The notes beneath the pieces were generated by a model. That model saw only the letters and a program-made list of their open reading frames with translations. It ran no database searches and was not told where the DNA came from. The translations under genes and the position numbers were made by a program. From positions 1 through 32,535 of the forward strand of contig DVKO01000127.1 of assembly GCA_018715985.1 (NCBI GenBank): a stretch of DNA of 32,535 nucleotides, read 5' to 3'. Source of the stretch: Candidatus Enterenecus avicola. Its GTDB lineage: Bacteria > Bacillota > Clostridia > Oscillospirales > Oscillospiraceae. Of this stretch, positions 7,610 to 15,328 are shown piece by piece. Within the stretch, counting starts at the first letter, position 1; every line of letters begins with the position of its first letter.

Positions 7610-9124
7610 ATGACACACATCTTGGAATATTTGGAACAGAGCGCGCGCCAATTCCCGGACAAACCCGCTCTGGTAGACGAAACTCAAACCGTCACATTCT
7701 CCCAGGCCCTGGATGCCAGTCGGCGCATTGGCTCCTCCCTCTCCCTGTCCTTGGCAAAAGGACAACCCGTAGCCGTATACATGGAAAAGAGCGTGGCCAA
7801 TCTCTGCGCGTTCTGGGGTATCGTGTACGCAGGAGGCTTTTACGTATCGTTCAATACCCAGCTTCCCACCTCGCGGCTCAAGCAGATGCAGTCGGTGCTC
7901 CAAGCTCCCTTTGTCATCACCGATGAGGCCCATCGGGCTGGGCTGGAAGAAATATTTCCTTCTCACCGCATCCTGCTCTACGACGACCTGGTGCGCAGCA
8001 GCATTCATCACGCTCAGCTGTCTCAGATTCGGAGCCATCACGTGGACACCGATCCTCTCTATGCCAACTTCACCTCCGGCTCCACCGGGGTACCCAAGGC
8101 AGTGGTGGTGGGACATCGCTCCACCCTGGATTTCATCCACCACTTCTGCCCCCTGTTCTCCATTACCCACGAAGATGTCATCGCCAACCAGGCGCCCTTT
8201 GACTTTGACGTATCGGTCAAGGACATCTACTCCGCCCTGGCCACCGGTGCCACCCTGGTGTTGGTGCCGCGCCCCCTCTTCTCCCAGCCCCAGCAGCTGC
8301 TGGATTTTCTCTGTGAACACCGGGCCACTACCCTCATTTGGGCCGTGTCCGCCCTGTGCCTCATCACCACCGTCCACGGGCTGGACTACCGTGTGCCCGA
8401 GACGGTCAACAAGGTGCTCTTCAGCGGCGAGGTGATGCCGGCCAAGCACTTGAAGACCTGGATGGAACATCTGCCTCAGGCACAGTTTGTCAACCTGTAC
8501 GGTCCTACCGAGATCACCTGCAACTGTACGTATCATATCATTGACCGAACCCGCTCCTATCCCGACGGCATTCCCATGGGACAGGCCTTCCCCAACGAGG
8601 ATGTGTTTTTGCTGGACGGGGAGGATCATCTGGTCACTGCCCCCAACGTGGTGGGCGAGGTGTGTGTGCGGGGCTCCGCCCTGGCCTTGGGCTACTACCG
8701 CAACCCGGAACAGACCGCCAAGGCTTTCCCCAACACCCCCCTGAACCCCTGCTACCCGGAGCGGATCTACCGCACTGGAGACTTGGCCCGCTACTCTTCT
8801 CTGGGAGAGCTTCACTTCTGTGGCCGCAAGGACTTTCAGATCAAGCATATGGGACACCGCATCGAACTGGAGGAAATCGAACGAGCCGTCTCCAATCTGC
8901 CCGGTGTACACCGGTGCTGCTGCGTGTTTCACAGTGAAAAACACCGCCTGTACGCCTTCTACCAGGGGGAGCCGACCCCCAAGGAGCTGCGCTTACAGCT
9001 GCTCCCCACTCTTCCCCCCTATATGATCCCCAACGTGTTCCGCCAAGTGGAACAGTTTCCCCTAAACAAGAACGGAAAAATCGACCGTACCCTACTGATG
9101 AAAGGAGCTGTCAGCCGTGGATGA
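7610..9124 (+). CDS. DltA-like amino-acid adenylation enzyme (carrier-protein ligase)
   Basis: Adenylation motifs FTSGSTGVPKAVVV, NLYGPTEITC, YRTGDLARYSSLGELHFCGRKDFQIKHMGHRIELEEIE, PLNKNGKIDR. Confidence 0.9.
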   Translation: MTHILEYLEQSARQFPDKPALVDETQTVTFSQALDASRRIGSSLSLSLAKGQPVAVYMEKSVANLCAFWGIVYAGGFYVSFNTQLPTSRLKQMQSVLQAPFVITDEAHRAGLEEIFPSHRILLYDDLVRSSIHHAQLSQIRSHHVDTDPLYANFTSGSTGVPKAVVVGHRSTLDFIHHFCPLFSITHEDVIANQAPFDFDVSVKDIYSALATGATLVLVPRPLFSQPQQLLDFLCEHRATTLIWAVSALCLITTVHGLDYRVPETVNKVLFSGEVMPAKHLKTWMEHLPQAQFVNLYGPTEITCNCTYHIIDRTRSYPDGIPMGQAFPNEDVFLLDGEDHLVTAPNVVGEVCVRGSALALGYYRNPEQTAKAFPNTPLNPCYPERIYRTGDLARYSSLGELHFCGRKDFQIKHMGHRIELEEIERAVSNLPGVHRCCCVFHSEKHRLYAFYQGEPTPKELRLQLLPTLPPYMIPNVFRQVEQFPLNKNGKIDRTLLMKGAVSRG

Positions 9125-10295
9125 AACCTTTGTAAGCTCCCTGCTCTCCGACCACGCCACCCCTTTGTATCTCTTTGACGGGACCGTGCTGGAACAGCGG
9201 GTGGCATACCTGCGCTCCAAGCTGCCCCAAAGGGTAGGGCTGTGCTATGCCATCAAAGCCAATCCCTTCCTGGCTGGCTACCTCTCCCCACTGGTGGAGC
9301 GGCTGGAGCTGTGTTCTCCCGGTGAATACCGGATTTGTGAGCGCCAGGGGCTGCCCAAGTCCCAGTTCGTGGTCTCCGGGGTGTACAAGACCCCCGACTT
9401 CATTCAGGACATCCTTCCCTACTCCCCGGCAATCTTCACCGTGGAGTCCATGGAGCAGTTCCACCTTCTCCGCCGCACAGCTCAGGAGAGTGGCACACCG
9501 GTGTCTCTGCTGCTGCGTCTGACCAGCGGCAACCAATTTGGCCTGGAAAAAGAGGAGATCACCACCATCCTCACCCAGTATGGAAAAGAATCTCTCCTGC
9601 ACTTCAAGGGCGTCCAGTACTTCTCCGGTACCCAAAAGACCTCCTTAAAACGGCTCCAGCGGGAACTGAATACGGTGGACGAATTTCTAAAGGAACTGGA
9701 GGCCCTGCTGGGCCGGCCCATGGAGGAGCTGGAATTTGGGCCTGGTTTCCCGGTCAGCTACTACGCAGAGGACGATTTCCAAGAAGATGCGTACCTGGAG
9801 CAGTTTGCCCAGATGCTGGAGGCCATGGCCTTTGCCGGTACCGTCATATTGGAATTGGGCCGGAGCCTGGCCGCCCACTGCGGCACCTACTTCACCCAGG
9901 TGGTGGATGCCAAGCGCAACCACAACCAGAATTACGCCATTGTGGACGGCGGGATGCATCAGCTGGTGTACTACGGCCAGTCCATGGCCATGAAACTCCC
10001 TCCCATCCGGCACTTCACCTCCCATTCCCCGGGAAATGTGGAGCCATGGAACATCTGCGGTTCTCTGTGCACCATCAATGATATTTTGGTCAAGCAGCTT
10101 CCCCTCCCCTCCCTCCATGTGGGTGATGTGTTGGCCTTCCAGCGCACCGGCGCATACTGCATGACCGAGGGCATCTCCCTCTTCCTCAGCCGGGATCTGC
10201 CCGCCGTTTTATACCGTCACCCAGACGGAACGGTGGAGGAGCTGCGCCCCCACTTTGACACCTATCCCCTGAATACCCCCAATCAAAAGAAATGA
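9117..10295 (+). CDS. Type III (alanine racemase-like fold) PLP-dependent decarboxylase, DAP/Orn/Lys decarboxylase-like
   Basis: YAIKANPFLAGYLSPLVERLELCSPGEYR (PLP lysine), ELEFGPGFPVSY, LELGRSLAAHCG, GSLCTINDIL, RTGAYCMTEG; GTG start overlapping the ligase stop by 8 nt. Confidence 0.85.
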   Translation: MDETFVSSLLSDHATPLYLFDGTVLEQRVAYLRSKLPQRVGLCYAIKANPFLAGYLSPLVERLELCSPGEYRICERQGLPKSQFVVSGVYKTPDFIQDILPYSPAIFTVESMEQFHLLRRTAQESGTPVSLLLRLTSGNQFGLEKEEITTILTQYGKESLLHFKGVQYFSGTQKTSLKRLQRELNTVDEFLKELEALLGRPMEELEFGPGFPVSYYAEDDFQEDAYLEQFAQMLEAMAFAGTVILELGRSLAAHCGTYFTQVVDAKRNHNQNYAIVDGGMHQLVYYGQSMAMKLPPIRHFTSHSPGNVEPWNICGSLCTINDILVKQLPLPSLHVGDVLAFQRTGAYCMTEGISLFLSRDLPAVLYRHPDGTVEELRPHFDTYPLNTPNQKK

Positions 10296-10306
10296 GGTAA
10301 TGAAAC

Positions 10307-10537
10307 ATGGATCGTTTGCTGGAACTGTTGGAAGAAATTCGCCCTGACCTGGACTTTGAGACCTGCCAGGACTTGATTGACGGGCATCACCTGAACTCCC
10401 TGGACATCATCTCCATCGTGGCCGAGGTAGAGGACGCCTTTGATGTCACCATTCCCACCGTGGAAGTCATTCCCCACAACTTTAACTCCGCCCAGAACCT
10501 CTGGGATCTGATTGTGCGCCTCCAAGAGGAGGGATAA
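10307..10537 (+). CDS. Acyl/aminoacyl carrier protein (DltC-like)
   Basis: 76 aa; LNSLDIISIVAEVEDAFDVTIP phosphopantetheine-attachment region (Ser31) and acidic helices. Confidence 0.85.
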   Translation: MDRLLELLEEIRPDLDFETCQDLIDGHHLNSLDIISIVAEVEDAFDVTIPTVEVIPHNFNSAQNLWDLIVRLQEEG

Positions 10538-10538
10538 A

Positions 10539-12131
10539 ATGGCCTCCTACTTCTCCCCGCAGTACCTAATGCTTCTGCTCCCCGCCACGGCAGGCCTCTA
10601 CGCCATTACGCCCCAGCGGGTGCGCCGGGTAGTCCTGCTGCTGGCAAGCTATGTGTTCTTCTGGGCGGTCAGCGGGTCGCTGATCGTATATCTGCTCTTC
10701 TCCACCCTCTCCATTCATCACCTGGGGTTGTGGCTGGAGCTCACCGGTCTGACTGGAAAACAGAAGCTGGCTCAGGCGGAACCGGAACAGCGGAAATCCA
10801 TCCGGGCCTCCATTCAGCAAAAGCAGCGCTCCATCATTCTCCTGGGCGTGGTCATCCACATTGGCCTGCTTCTCACCCTCAAATACAGCCAATTCTTTCT
10901 GGGAAACGGGAACACACTTCTGCGCATTCTCCATATGCCTGCCATTCTCCCGGTTCCCCACTTTGTCCTGCCCATCGGCATCTCCTTCTACACTCTGCAA
11001 GCGGTGTCCTACCTGCTGGATGTCTATCGCGGGAAAATTCAGGCAGACCGAAACCTCTTCCGCCTGGCCCTCTTCCTGGGCTTTTTCCCTCAGATGATGG
11101 AGGGACCCATCTGCCGCTACGAGCAGACCGCCCAGCGGCTGTGGGATGCCCCGAAAATGCAGTGGCACAATTTTTATTTGGGCGGTCAGCGCATTCTCTG
11201 GGGCATCATCAAAAAAATGGTGGTAGCTGATCGGCTGAATATTTTTATCCTCAATGTATTTTCCGGATATGACCAGTATGACGGCTCGGTCATTGCCCTG
11301 GCGGCCATCTGTTACACGGTACAGCTGTACATGGACTTTTCCGGCACCATCGACGTGGCACTGGGCAGCGCCCAACTCTTCGGCGTAGCCATGCCGGAAA
11401 ATTTCCAGCGTCCCTTTTTCTCCCGCACCATTTCTGAGTTCTGGCAGCGGTGGCACATCACCCTGGGCACCTGGTTCAAGGACTACATCTTCTACCCCGT
11501 CAGTATGTCCAAGCCCATGAAAAAGCTGACCTCCAAGGCACGGAAACGCTTCGGCCACCGCTATGGTCCCATTCTCACCAGCAGCGTGGCGCTGCTGTGT
11601 GTGTGGCTGTGCAATGGCCTGTGGCACGGCTCGGCCTGGAACTACATCTTCTTTGGCCTGTACCATTTCGCCCTGATTTTCTCCGGAAACCTGATTCAGC
11701 CTCTGGTGCTCACCGTCACAGAGCGGCTCCACATTGACCGAAATCATGTGGCCTATCGGGTCATGCAGGCCCTGAGAACCTGTGTGCTGGTGTGTATCGG
11801 CGAGCTGTTCTTCCGGGCCGAGGGCCTGCGCAACGGCTTAAAGATGGCCTGGCGCATGGTGACCAACTGGTCTTTTACCCCCATCGTCTCCGGCAACTTC
11901 TTCGCCTACGGCATGGACGCCGCCGACTTCATTCTGGTGGTAGCCTTTCTGGTGTTCCTGCTGTTTGTGGGTCTGGCCCAAGAGCGCGGTGCCCGGCTGG
12001 GTGAGCGGATCGTTGCCAAGCCCTGGCCGGTGCGCATTGCGGTGTACTATGCCGCCATCTGTTTTCTGGTGATTTTTGGCGCCTACGGCATCGGTTACAT
12101 CCCCGTTGACCCCATTTACGCCGGATTTTAA
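10539..12131 (+). CDS. MBOAT-family O-acyltransferase (DltB/AlgI-like)
   Basis: PIGISFYTLQAVSYLLDVYRG, YMDFSGTIDVALGSAQLFG, RTISEFWQRWHITLGTWFKDYIFYPV and NGLWHGSAWNYIFFGLYHF (catalytic His); start 1 nt after the carrier-protein stop. Confidence 0.93.
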   Translation: MASYFSPQYLMLLLPATAGLYAITPQRVRRVVLLLASYVFFWAVSGSLIVYLLFSTLSIHHLGLWLELTGLTGKQKLAQAEPEQRKSIRASIQQKQRSIILLGVVIHIGLLLTLKYSQFFLGNGNTLLRILHMPAILPVPHFVLPIGISFYTLQAVSYLLDVYRGKIQADRNLFRLALFLGFFPQMMEGPICRYEQTAQRLWDAPKMQWHNFYLGGQRILWGIIKKMVVADRLNIFILNVFSGYDQYDGSVIALAAICYTVQLYMDFSGTIDVALGSAQLFGVAMPENFQRPFFSRTISEFWQRWHITLGTWFKDYIFYPVSMSKPMKKLTSKARKRFGHRYGPILTSSVALLCVWLCNGLWHGSAWNYIFFGLYHFALIFSGNLIQPLVLTVTERLHIDRNHVAYRVMQALRTCVLVCIGELFFRAEGLRNGLKMAWRMVTNWSFTPIVSGNFFAYGMDAADFILVVAFLVFLLFVGLAQERGARLGERIVAKPWPVRIAVYYAAICFLVIFGAYGIGYIPVDPIYAGF

Positions 12132-12149
12132 TAAGGAGGTCATCCAACA

Positions 12150-13100
12150 ATGAAGATTGTCAAACCACTTTTGGGTTTCGCCGCCTTCGGTCTGGGCCTT
12201 CTCATCATTCTATATGGCCTATCCTTCCTCTTCGTCCCCAAAAACAACACCAAGGATGCGGGGATGGAGGAGGTCATCGCCAACGGCATCCAAGGTGAAC
12301 CCCCCAATTCCATCGACGTGGTTGTGGTGGGGGACAGCGAGTCCTATACATCCATCTCCCCCCTGCTGATCTGGAAAGATACCGGTTACACCAGCTATGT
12401 GTGCGGAAGCAGTAAGCAGTACCTCTCTTACAGCAAGACGCTTTTGGAGCGTGCCTTTGAGACCCAATCTCCCAAGCTGGTGATTCTGGAAACCCTGTGT
12501 ATCTATCGGAACATTCCTGCCAAGACCATCGTTATGGATGAAGTCTCCCGCTACCTGCCCATTCTCCGCTATCACGACCGCTGGAAAAACATTAGTCAGC
12601 GGGATCTGGCGGTCTCGGAGGAAAGCACGTACACAACCCCCTATAAGGGAAACCGCCGCAGCACCAAGGTCAATGGAGCGGACACCTCCAGCTACATGAC
12701 ACAGACGACAAACGCAGCTACCATCCCCATGGTCAATCGGATTTTGGTGGAGCAAATCCAGCAGCTGTGCGAGGCAAACGGGGCAAAGCTGTTGCTGCTC
12801 AGTACCCCCAGCACCGTCAACTGGAACTACCAGCGTCACAACGGCATTCAGGCCCTGGCCGAAGATCTGGGCATCGAGTACATCGACCTGAACACCATGC
12901 CACAGGAGGTCCCCATCGACTGGTCCACCGACACCTATGACCGGGGTGACCACCTCAACTACTCCGGCTGTGTCAAGGTTACCAATTTCCTCTCAAGGTA
13001 TTTGGAGGGCACCAAAATGTTCTCAGACCGCCGAGGAGACAGCCAATACGACAGCTGGAATACCCTGCTTCAGGAGTATGAGGCGGAGGTTTCCAAATGA
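12150..13100 (+). CDS. Membrane-anchored SGNH-hydrolase-like protein (DltD/AlgJ-like)
   Basis: N-terminal TM segment, VVVVGDSESYTSISP (GDS block) and YDRGDHLNYSGCVKVT (DxxH block); SD aaggagg. Confidence 0.75.
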   Translation: MKIVKPLLGFAAFGLGLLIILYGLSFLFVPKNNTKDAGMEEVIANGIQGEPPNSIDVVVVGDSESYTSISPLLIWKDTGYTSYVCGSSKQYLSYSKTLLERAFETQSPKLVILETLCIYRNIPAKTIVMDEVSRYLPILRYHDRWKNISQRDLAVSEESTYTTPYKGNRRSTKVNGADTSSYMTQTTNAATIPMVNRILVEQIQQLCEANGAKLLLLSTPSTVNWNYQRHNGIQALAEDLGIEYIDLNTMPQEVPIDWSTDTYDRGDHLNYSGCVKVTNFLSRYLEGTKMFSDRRGDSQYDSWNTLLQEYEAEVSK

Positions 13101-13131
13101 AAAATGGGATGCCATATGGCATCCCATTTTT
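13100..13131. terminator. 32-bp perfect palindrome AAAAATGGGATGCCATATGGCATCCCATTTTT between convergent operons
   Basis: Sequence is identical to its reverse complement and has T-runs on both strands; immediately follows the SGNH gene stop. Confidence 0.88.
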
Positions 13132-13138
13132 TGCGCCG

Positions 13139-13871: not shown

Positions 13872-14198
13872 TCAGGTCTCCCGATCCACTTGTTTCATGA
13901 TTTTCAAATTTCCGATTTTCAAACTGCGGCGTTCCAGCTCCGCCATCACATCATCCAGAGGAATCCCCTGCTGCGCCATCATGACCATCAGGTGATAGAT
14001 GAGGTCGGAGATCTCCCCCACCGTCTCCTCCTTTACGCCATTTTTTGCGGCGATGATGGTTTCCGCACACTCCTCCCCCACCTTTTTGAGAATCTTGTCC
14101 AGACCCTTGTCAAACAGATAGCAGGTATAGGAGCCCTCCTGGGGGTTGGCCTTGCGATCCAGAACCACCGAGTACAGTTTTTGCATGGTATCGTTCAT
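13872..14198 (-). CDS. hisE: Phosphoribosyl-ATP diphosphatase
   Basis: GSYTCYLFDKGLDKILKKVGEECAETIIAAKN...EISDLIYHLMVMM; start MNDTMQKL at 14198. Confidence 0.95.
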   Translation of the reverse strand: MNDTMQKLYSVVLDRKANPQEGSYTCYLFDKGLDKILKKVGEECAETIIAAKNGVKEETVGEISDLIYHLMVMMAQQGIPLDDVMAELERRSLKIGNLKIMKQVDRET

Positions 14199-14238
14199 GG
14201 GAATCCTCTCCTTCCAAGTATGTCTAGGCACACTTTCA

Positions 14239-14559
14239 TTATACTTTGATTTCACGGAAAAAACAACTGGTAGCTCCAGTATGACAGGTGGGCCCTTTGG
14301 GGGTGCACAGATAGAGCAGCGTGTCCGTGTCACAGTCGGTGAAGATTTCGTTGACATAGAGGAAATGTCCGCTGCTCTCCCCCTTGTTCCACAGCTTTTG
14401 ACGGCTGCGGCTCCAAAACCAGGCGGTCTTTGTCTCCAGAGTTTTTTCCACCGCCTCCCGGTTGGTAAAGCCCAGCATCAGCACCTGCTTGGTGTCGGAA
14501 TCCTGGATAATCACCGGGATAAGGTCAGATTTTTGAAAGAGCAAATCCAGATCAAACAC
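14239..14559 (-). CDS. hisI: Phosphoribosyl-AMP cyclohydrolase
   Basis: [32 protein letters not shown] and [10 protein letters not shown]. Confidence 0.95.
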
Positions 14560-15328
14560 AGCCCTCTCTCCTCTCGCGTACCGGGATATTCTGCTCCCGG
14601 AGATACTCCTTCACCTGGGGGACCGTCAGCTCCCCAAAGTGGAACAGACTGGCGGCCAGAGCCGCATCACACCCGGTCTCCTCAAACACCTGGGCAAAGT
14701 GGGACAGCTCCCCGCAGCCCCCCGAGGCGATCACCGGGATGGTCACCGCACCGGTCACCGCGCGGGTCAGCTCCAAGTCAAAGCCGGCCTTGGTGCCATC
14801 GGCATCCATGGAGGTCAGGAGGATCTCCCCCGCCCCCAGTTCCTGGCCCCTCTTGGCCCACTCCACCGCATCCAGCCCGGTGGGAATGCGGCCGCCTGCC
14901 ACCACCACTTCAAACCAGCCCTCTTCCCGCCGTTTGGCGTCAATGGCCAGCACCACGCACTGGGAGCCAAAGAGCTGGGCGGCATCGGCGATGAGCTGGG
15001 GATGTTTCACTGCCGAGGAATTGACGGAGATCTTGTCCGCCCCTGCCCGCAGCAGGCGGCGAAAGTCCTCCACCGTGCGAATGCCGCCCCCCACCGTCAG
15101 GGGGACAAAGACCTGGCTGGCGGTGCGCTCCACCACGTCCTCCACGGTGTCCCGGGCATCGCTGGTGGCGGTGATGTCCAGAAAGACGATCTCATCCGCC
15201 CCCTGGTCTGAGTAGTAGCGGGCCAGCTCCACCGGGTCACCGGCATCCCGGATGTTGACGAAGTTGACTCCCTTCACCACCCGGCCATCCCGCACATCCA
15301 GGCAGGGAATGATACGCTTGGCTAGCAT
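14552..15328 (-). CDS. hisF: Imidazole glycerol phosphate synthase cyclase subunit
   Basis: [56 protein letters not shown]. Confidence 0.98.

Follow-up and report, generated by a model that had tools for sequence, protein, structure and literature searches.

Gene layout of the operon

The stretch of DNA analysed here, referred to as the window, comprises positions 1-32,535 of the forward strand of contig DVKO01000127.1, which is contig 89 in a 1.74 Mb, ~92% complete assembly of Candidatus Enterenecus avicola (GCA_018715985.1). It contains a compact operon resembling the dlt operon, with five same-strand genes designated A, K, C, B and D in that order, which encode an amino acid adenylation enzyme (ligase), a pyridoxal 5'-phosphate (PLP) decarboxylase, a carrier protein, a membrane-bound O-acyltransferase (MBOAT) and an SGNH-fold protein, respectively (Table 1). 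An earlier analysis of the nucleotide letters only, termed here the sequence-only reading, had described a tight five-gene operon closed by a strong terminator and proposed that it decorates a surface polymer with a decarboxylated amino acid instead of D-alanine. The layout proved to be as described, with an overlap of 8 nt between A and K and gaps of 11, 1 and 18 nt at the K-C, C-B and B-D junctions. The ATG at 10539 was used as the start of B; the mechanically called open reading frame begins at the TTG at 10512.

Table 1. Coordinates of the operon genes and the downstream hairpin in the window, with the basis of each assignment.
Feature	Description	Position	Strand	Basis
A	Amino acid adenylation enzyme, DltA-like, not DltA	7610-9124	+	TIGR01733 above cut-off; TIGR01734/DltA 270.5 bits
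K	Type III (alanine-racemase-fold) PLP decarboxylase, BtrK-like	9117-10295 (GTG start)	+	PF02784/PF00278
C	Carrier protein, 76 aa; phosphopantetheine serine S31 in L-N-S-L	10307-10537	+	PF00550
B	MBOAT acyltransferase, DltB-like, with fused C-terminal shuttle-like motif	10539-12131 (ATG start)	+	PF03062
D	SGNH-fold acyltransferase candidate in DltD position	12150-13100	+	AlphaFold2 + Foldseek
Hairpin	Palindromic, terminator-like; one side A-rich, other T-rich	~13099-13132	.	Folding energy

The 61 nt surrounding the end of D have a folding energy of -25.5 kcal/mol, compared with a mean of -13.2 for shuffled sequences (z -4.31), and no shuffle folded equally well. The hairpin rests on this fold calculation, as the terminator scan missed it, probably because the stem extends into the T tract. 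With D on one side and a convergent minus-strand gene on the other, the hairpin may act as terminator for both.

Specificity pocket of the ligase

Judged by its sequence, A is not a DltA. It fell below the cut-off of both the DltA model TIGR01734 (270.5 bits, cut-off 559.85) and the exosortase A-associated ligase model TIGR03098 (199.8 bits, cut-off 592), and a tree of 63 ligases split the canonical DltAs from the A group with full support. Alignment by motif places the predicted substrate pocket at residues D200, V201, K204, W244, L270, S272, L296, C304, N305 and K490 of A. In GrsA numbering, used from here on, the ten specificity positions read D-V-K-W-[LM]-S-[LV]-C-N-K in 77/77 relatives, the only variation being L or M at position 299 and a single L/V exchange at 322. 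Among canonical DltAs sampled from the same order, the usual code is D-[VL]-x-S-[LI]-C-T-V-x-K. At position 301 these DltAs have a Cys, which is tied to D-alanine in DltA, whereas all 77 relatives of A have Ser.

The lysine at position 239 is also found at this position in glutamate-activating peptide synthetases, and a K239Q exchange reportedly switched surfactin synthetase from glutamate to glutamine. D235 is the sole acidic residue in the pocket, and the lack of a second one argues against lysine, ornithine or diaminopimelate (DAP) as the substrate of A. A pocket of such polar character (K, S, N) would better suit an extra carboxylate.

Identity of the decarboxylase

The decarboxylase K carries its PLP lysine at K47 and a C318-x3-D322 motif that reads CT-IN-D, compared with CE-x-x-D in LysA. 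Its Pfam matches are to the Orn/DAP/Arg decarboxylase domains (Table 1) and also to the alanine-racemase-type barrel PF01168. When the profile of the K family was compared with solved structures, BtrK was the best match (E 1.1e-48), followed by SbnH and by diaminopimelate decarboxylases from 6.6e-43 down; as a single sequence, K matched H. pylori LysA marginally ahead of BtrK. The AlphaFold model of K (pLDDT 90) retrieved BtrK at ranks 1 and 2 in Foldseek. The active site has C-T/S-x-N-D and S-G-T-Q in K, C-T-P-E-D and T-G-T-Q in BtrK, and C-E-S-S-D and I-G-S-Q in H. pylori LysA; L-C-T-x-x-D and G-T-Q are common to K and BtrK, while LysA has C-E-x-x-D and H-I-G-S-Q. The best NCBIfam match, to the exosortase A-associated decarboxylase model TIGR03099, reached 167 bits of a cut-off of 478, and the match to the LysA model TIGR01048 reached 159.8 bits of 297.9. 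A separate LysA-like gene with the motif CENSD is present elsewhere in the genome. Score, motif and this separate gene together rule out K as the LysA of the organism.

A PLP decarboxylase requires a free amino group and a neighbouring carboxylate, hence a carrier-bound substrate must hang on the carrier via a second carboxylate. The vicenistatin enzymes follow this logic, and the simplest substrates would be aspartate, yielding a beta-alanyl group, or glutamate, yielding a 4-aminobutyryl group. Alternatively, K could convert a DAP-like substrate to lysine or a different basic amino acid, so that lysyl or diamino-acyl esters are formed. The LysA fold of K and its TIGR01048 match agree with such a role, but that match lies far under the cut-off, the genome has its other LysA-like gene with CENSD where K has C-T/S-x-N-D, and the ligase pocket holds no acidic residue for a side-chain amine; we regard this route as quite improbable. 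The groups named in the sequence-only reading have thus fared differently. A decarboxylated amino acid on a surface polymer is still favoured, with gamma-aminobutyrate (GABA) and beta-alanine fitting better, but the lysyl/diamine option is left unsupported because thioester loading needs a retained carboxylate and the pocket offers nothing acidic to hold a second amine.

Carrier protein and transferases

The match of C to PF00550 is weak, just above the cut-off; its relatives in the PDB include DltC and aminoacyl/peptidyl carrier proteins, and the phosphopantetheine serine is conserved in at least 97%. B scored 166.8 bits with the DltB model TIGR04091, under the cut-off of 375, although its nearest solved structure is DltB. 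Its residues H306 and H363 are conserved, and its C-terminus, PIYAGF in the window's copy (Tyr 527), conforms to P-[IML]-Y-A-x-[FY] in 74/74 complete copies. PatA-type MBOATs end in F-x-Y-x-x-F, the tyrosine of which is acylated before the group is handed to an SGNH partner; in Dlt the shuttle motif resides on the separate microprotein DltX, and a fused motif is said to pair with acyl-CoA donors and no carrier (PMC12148441). This operon joins a carrier protein with a shuttle-like motif fused to the MBOAT. Distant B copies from K-type loci end in KLIYAGF and GFIYAQF (FIYAQF in L166), and relatives from operons with a racemase gene in FIYNQF; these endings support the reading of the B C-terminus as a shuttle-like motif.

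D had no Pfam or NCBIfam match. Its AlphaFold2 model (pLDDT 93.7) matched SGNH hydrolases in Foldseek, e.g. TesA, and the motifs G61-D62-S63 and D265-x2-H268 are conserved, with G61, S63 and H268 invariant. On the strength of the model, D is an SGNH-fold protein and a candidate acyltransferase.

Conservation, distribution and mobility

A search of genome contigs with K yielded 80 loci, 73 of which have all five genes, in the order A-K-C-B-D (70 loci) or A-K-D-C-B (3 loci); several of the non-complete loci are cut by contig ends. Median gaps across the loci, following A-K-C-B-D, are -4, 10, 3 and 12 nt. With the same order recurring in 70/73 complete loci, the association of these genes far exceeds chance, and the recurrent five-gene loci rule out K as an accidental neighbour. 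A neighbourhood search of this kind had been suggested in the sequence-only reading, which would have been undermined by homologous loci that rarely keep the decarboxylase; instead, the five-gene set recurs. Two variant loci were noted, one (L169) with the order A-C-K-B-D, an apparently duplicated D and the ligase code IARW-, and another (L170) in which A is preceded by a carrier match and K-B-D come next.

The K of the window is closest to that of Pseudoflavonifractor at 82-85% identity. Hosts of the operon comprise Clostridia, Erysipelotrichia (Traorella), Coriobacteriia (Enorma, Slackia, Parvibacter, Eggerthellaceae and Atopobiaceae) and one Streptococcus record. In this last case, Streptococcus suis SSHP-D (L032:2749-16075), a response regulator, a kinase, A-K-C-B-D and a P-type ATPase are flanked by a tyrosine recombinase on one side and guaA on the other, some 26 kb away from the strain's own true dltA. 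The unit is probably the cargo of an integrated mobile or integrative element; no direct repeats flanking the insertion were found within the locus sequence examined. A plasmid search with K found no plasmid carrier at E up to 1e-40. The full operon also occurs in MT836540.1 (L173), filed as 'Bacteriophage sp.', accompanied by ABC transporters and regulators that resemble those in the Ruminococcus bromii loci. This record was rejected as a phage copy, since its surroundings look bacterial and its genes match the Ruminococcus bromii loci, and it most probably represents a bacterial contig filed in error.

A response regulator and a histidine kinase (VanR/VanS/WalK-related) are encoded ≤3 kb upstream of A in 28 of the 65 loci with enough upstream sequence, an arrangement reminiscent of the two-component control of dlt operons. 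No such pair adjoins the window's copy; a divergent minus-strand TrpS-like gene lies upstream of it, and a promoter scan gave nothing above chance. Downstream of the operon, the minus strand carries HisE/HisI/HisF-like histidine biosynthesis genes (window 13872-15328, assigned by sequence), for which no functional link was seen.

Coupling of the decarboxylase to the ligase pocket

A search with A only, covering 399 genomes of the phylum and 391 of the class, avoids the bias of the K-based search. Of the loci read, 12/12 with the code DVKW-S-CNK had K adjoining A, and 0/21 with other codes had K within the flanks examined. Among 15 K-less sister regions inspected, an Asp/Glu racemase gene was present in seven, a GNAT gene between A and C in two and neither in six. 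This suggests that a ligase-carrier-MBOAT-SGNH core takes exchangeable tailoring enzymes.

The racemase-type sister operons (L147, L148, L150, L151, L153 and L154) encode an Asp/Glu racemase, a ligase (mostly DAKWAGLGMK), a carrier, an MBOAT with an FIYxQF end, an SGNH protein and a small lipoprotein-like product, and some are preceded by a transglutaminase/Ig-like surface protein gene. By appearance, these are a second undescribed Dlt-like type, one that perhaps adds a D-amino acid. The GNAT acetyltransferase gene takes the place of K between ligase and carrier in L149 and L161, and the ligase code in the genome of L161, DAKWFALVDK, is close to a glutamate code. In two further regions (L157 and L158, from loci L130 and L135) the ligase has the code SMLWLALDIK, which lacks the amino-group-binding Asp, and the carrier, MBOAT and SGNH genes are kept; from their codes, these ligases may activate a non-amino acid.

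Other relatives retain K and have a different setting. L167 (4513-8090) and L168 consist of a ligase, K, a hexapeptide-repeat transferase-like protein and a carrier with no MBOAT nearby, and L165 consists of A-K-C only; the same chemistry is possibly applied to a sugar amine in these types. Such loci, along with the ligase-decarboxylase-carrier trios of natural-product and exosortase-associated pathways, raise the question of whether the decarboxylated group of the present operon is also destined for a small molecule or a sugar amide rather than a polymer ester. We hold that destination to be improbable here, as MBOAT and SGNH genes follow directly in 70/73 complete loci and the MBOAT has a conserved shuttle-like C-terminus.

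The same data bear on ordinary D-alanylation, in which A would load D-alanine and K would be either a passenger or a racemase supplying a D-amino acid. DltA, DltB and DltC are indeed among the relatives of A, B and C, and the racemase-type barrel of K would allow for such a role. Nevertheless, A has Ser where the DltAs of the order have their conserved Cys and scores well short of the DltA cut-off, the best matches of K are decarboxylases and not racemases, K is present in all complete loci, and the pocket of K-less relatives differs; the chance that the operon performs D-alanylation appears very slight. The sequence-only reading had named a ligase specific for D-alanine as a possible objection to its proposal, and the predicted pocket of A, being different from that of DltA, points away from it. 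Its placing of the decarboxylase within a Dlt-like acylation pathway is borne out by the retention of K in homologous loci, by the way K tracks the ligase pocket and by the activity of the nearest solved relative of K on an amino acid bound to a carrier; the main inference of that reading gains strength.

Proposed pathway

We somewhat favour a Dlt-like envelope acylation in which the amino acid is decarboxylated on the carrier. A would activate an acidic amino acid of the aspartate/glutamate class via its side-chain carboxylate and load it onto holo-C. K would then strip the remaining alpha-carboxylate to leave beta-alanyl-C or gamma-aminobutyryl-C, by homology with BtrK acting on Glu-BtrI and VinO on 3-methyl-Asp-VinL. 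B would carry the group across the membrane and attach it to the tyrosine in the C-terminal motif of B itself, from which D would transfer it to an extracytoplasmic polymer in ester linkage; these transfer steps follow the mechanism shown by others for PatA/PatB and DltX/DltD. The outcome would be a cationic modification that replaces D-alanine. A beta- or gamma-amino ester is expected to be more base-stable than an alpha-amino ester.

The two soluble steps could also run in reverse, with K decarboxylating free aspartate or glutamate to beta-alanine or GABA and A then activating the product and loading it onto C. The final group would be identical, and IdnL3, from a related context, is a decarboxylase that takes the free substrate (PMC11284099). 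In the vicenistatin pathway, by contrast, VinN loads 3-methylaspartate on VinL and ignores the already decarboxylated acid, and VinO then decarboxylates on the carrier (PMC11284099). The nearest profile relatives of K, BtrK and SbnH, also work on acylated amino acids, and the pocket of A would better accommodate an extra carboxylate, so that we consider the reverse order rather unlikely.

Several points weigh against decarboxylation on the carrier followed by transfer to the envelope. Substrate, product and acceptor are all predictions drawn from sequence and analogy; what the data show are the gene content and its conservation, the linkage of K to the ligase pocket, the lack of canonical DltA in most carriers and the folds of K and D. 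K239, read as the carboxylate contact, is shared by sister ligases from loci that lack K (DAKWAGLGMK), so on its own it is no marker of a decarboxylated substrate. The presence of K requires three changes on the ligase tree and its link to the code is largely that of one clade, which implies few independent events behind that link; outside the main clade K occurs with the codes DAKWCVLGIK and IARW-, and twice without a nearby MBOAT. In B, the first Phe of the FXYXXF shuttle motif is Pro, with the Tyr and the last aromatic residue retained. As for the acceptor, a CDP-glycerol glycerophosphotransferase (PF04464) was not found in the operon's genome (~92% complete), and its three sulfatase-family proteins have weak LtaS similarity (22-77 of 970 bits).

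Taken more broadly, we see about even chances that the operon belongs to a family of operons, widespread and horizontally moving among gut bacteria, that esterifies an envelope polymer with a carrier-decarboxylated amino acid (beta-alanyl or gamma-aminobutyryl) and not with D-alanine, and that this family is one branch of a modular system whose ligase-carrier-MBOAT-SGNH core is equipped with a decarboxylase, an Asp/Glu racemase or a GNAT enzyme. D-alanylation is a main Gram-positive means of tuning surface charge and resisting cationic peptides. If D-alanine is swapped for beta-alanine or GABA, the surface chemistry of many gut Clostridia and Coriobacteriia has been overlooked; the probable reason is that annotation splits the operon into separate entries for an adenylation domain, a DAP decarboxylase and an acyl carrier protein. 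If true, the pathway would unite on-carrier decarboxylation and MBOAT-SGNH transfer, enzymologies known only apart, in one operon, and the prediction can be tested with three purified soluble proteins.

Comparison with known systems

The sequence-only reading knew of no characterised pathway with this exact five-gene set. None was found in the literature either, nor any published description of an operon combining a decarboxylase with dlt or MBOAT genes; this is weak evidence, as open-licence literature only was covered. The parts are known and their combination appears undescribed there.

The operon shares with dltABCD/dltX a ligase, a carrier, an MBOAT (DltB) and an SGNH protein in the DltD position, as well as the likely transfer of a cationic aminoacyl group to an envelope polymer. 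It differs in its added PLP decarboxylase, in a pocket of DVKW-S-CNK as opposed to D[VL]x-S-[LI]-C-T, in the shuttle-like motif fused to the MBOAT and in scores far under the DltA and DltB equivalog cut-offs. Canonical DltA is absent from 20 of 22 operon-carrying genomes. The two exceptions are the Streptococcus, whose gene scores 745 bits and is a true DltA, and Parvibacter, whose gene scores 465 bits and contains a single in-frame stop; the genome from which the window comes has one DltA-like gene only and no canonical DltA.

The pairing of a type III PLP decarboxylase with a carrier recalls BtrK/BtrI of butirosin biosynthesis, where BtrK is the L-glutamyl-[BtrI acyl-carrier protein] decarboxylase, but that system belongs to an antibiotic pathway with no MBOAT or SGNH protein, and K is only ~22% identical to BtrK. 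In VinN/VinO/VinL of vicenistatin and FlvN-type systems, an aspartate-type amino acid is likewise put on a stand-alone acyl carrier protein by a ligase and decarboxylated there by a PLP enzyme; unlike the present operon, these feed a polyketide synthase and give a macrolactam starter unit, not a surface ester. The same enzyme classes make up the exosortase A-associated TIGR03098/TIGR03099/acyl carrier protein set, which belongs to a Gram-negative exosortase context, whereas the operon carries Dlt-like transferases. PatA/PatB and other MBOAT-SGNH O-acyltransferases have in common with it an MBOAT with a C-terminal tyrosine motif and an SGNH partner, but use acyl-CoA and no carrier; the operon has a carrier, a ligase and a decarboxylase, and its motif starts with Pro and not Phe. 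The operon is best described as a variant of MBOAT-SGNH envelope acylation that is Dlt-like without being a dlt operon, and for which the chemistry of the added group is a prediction.

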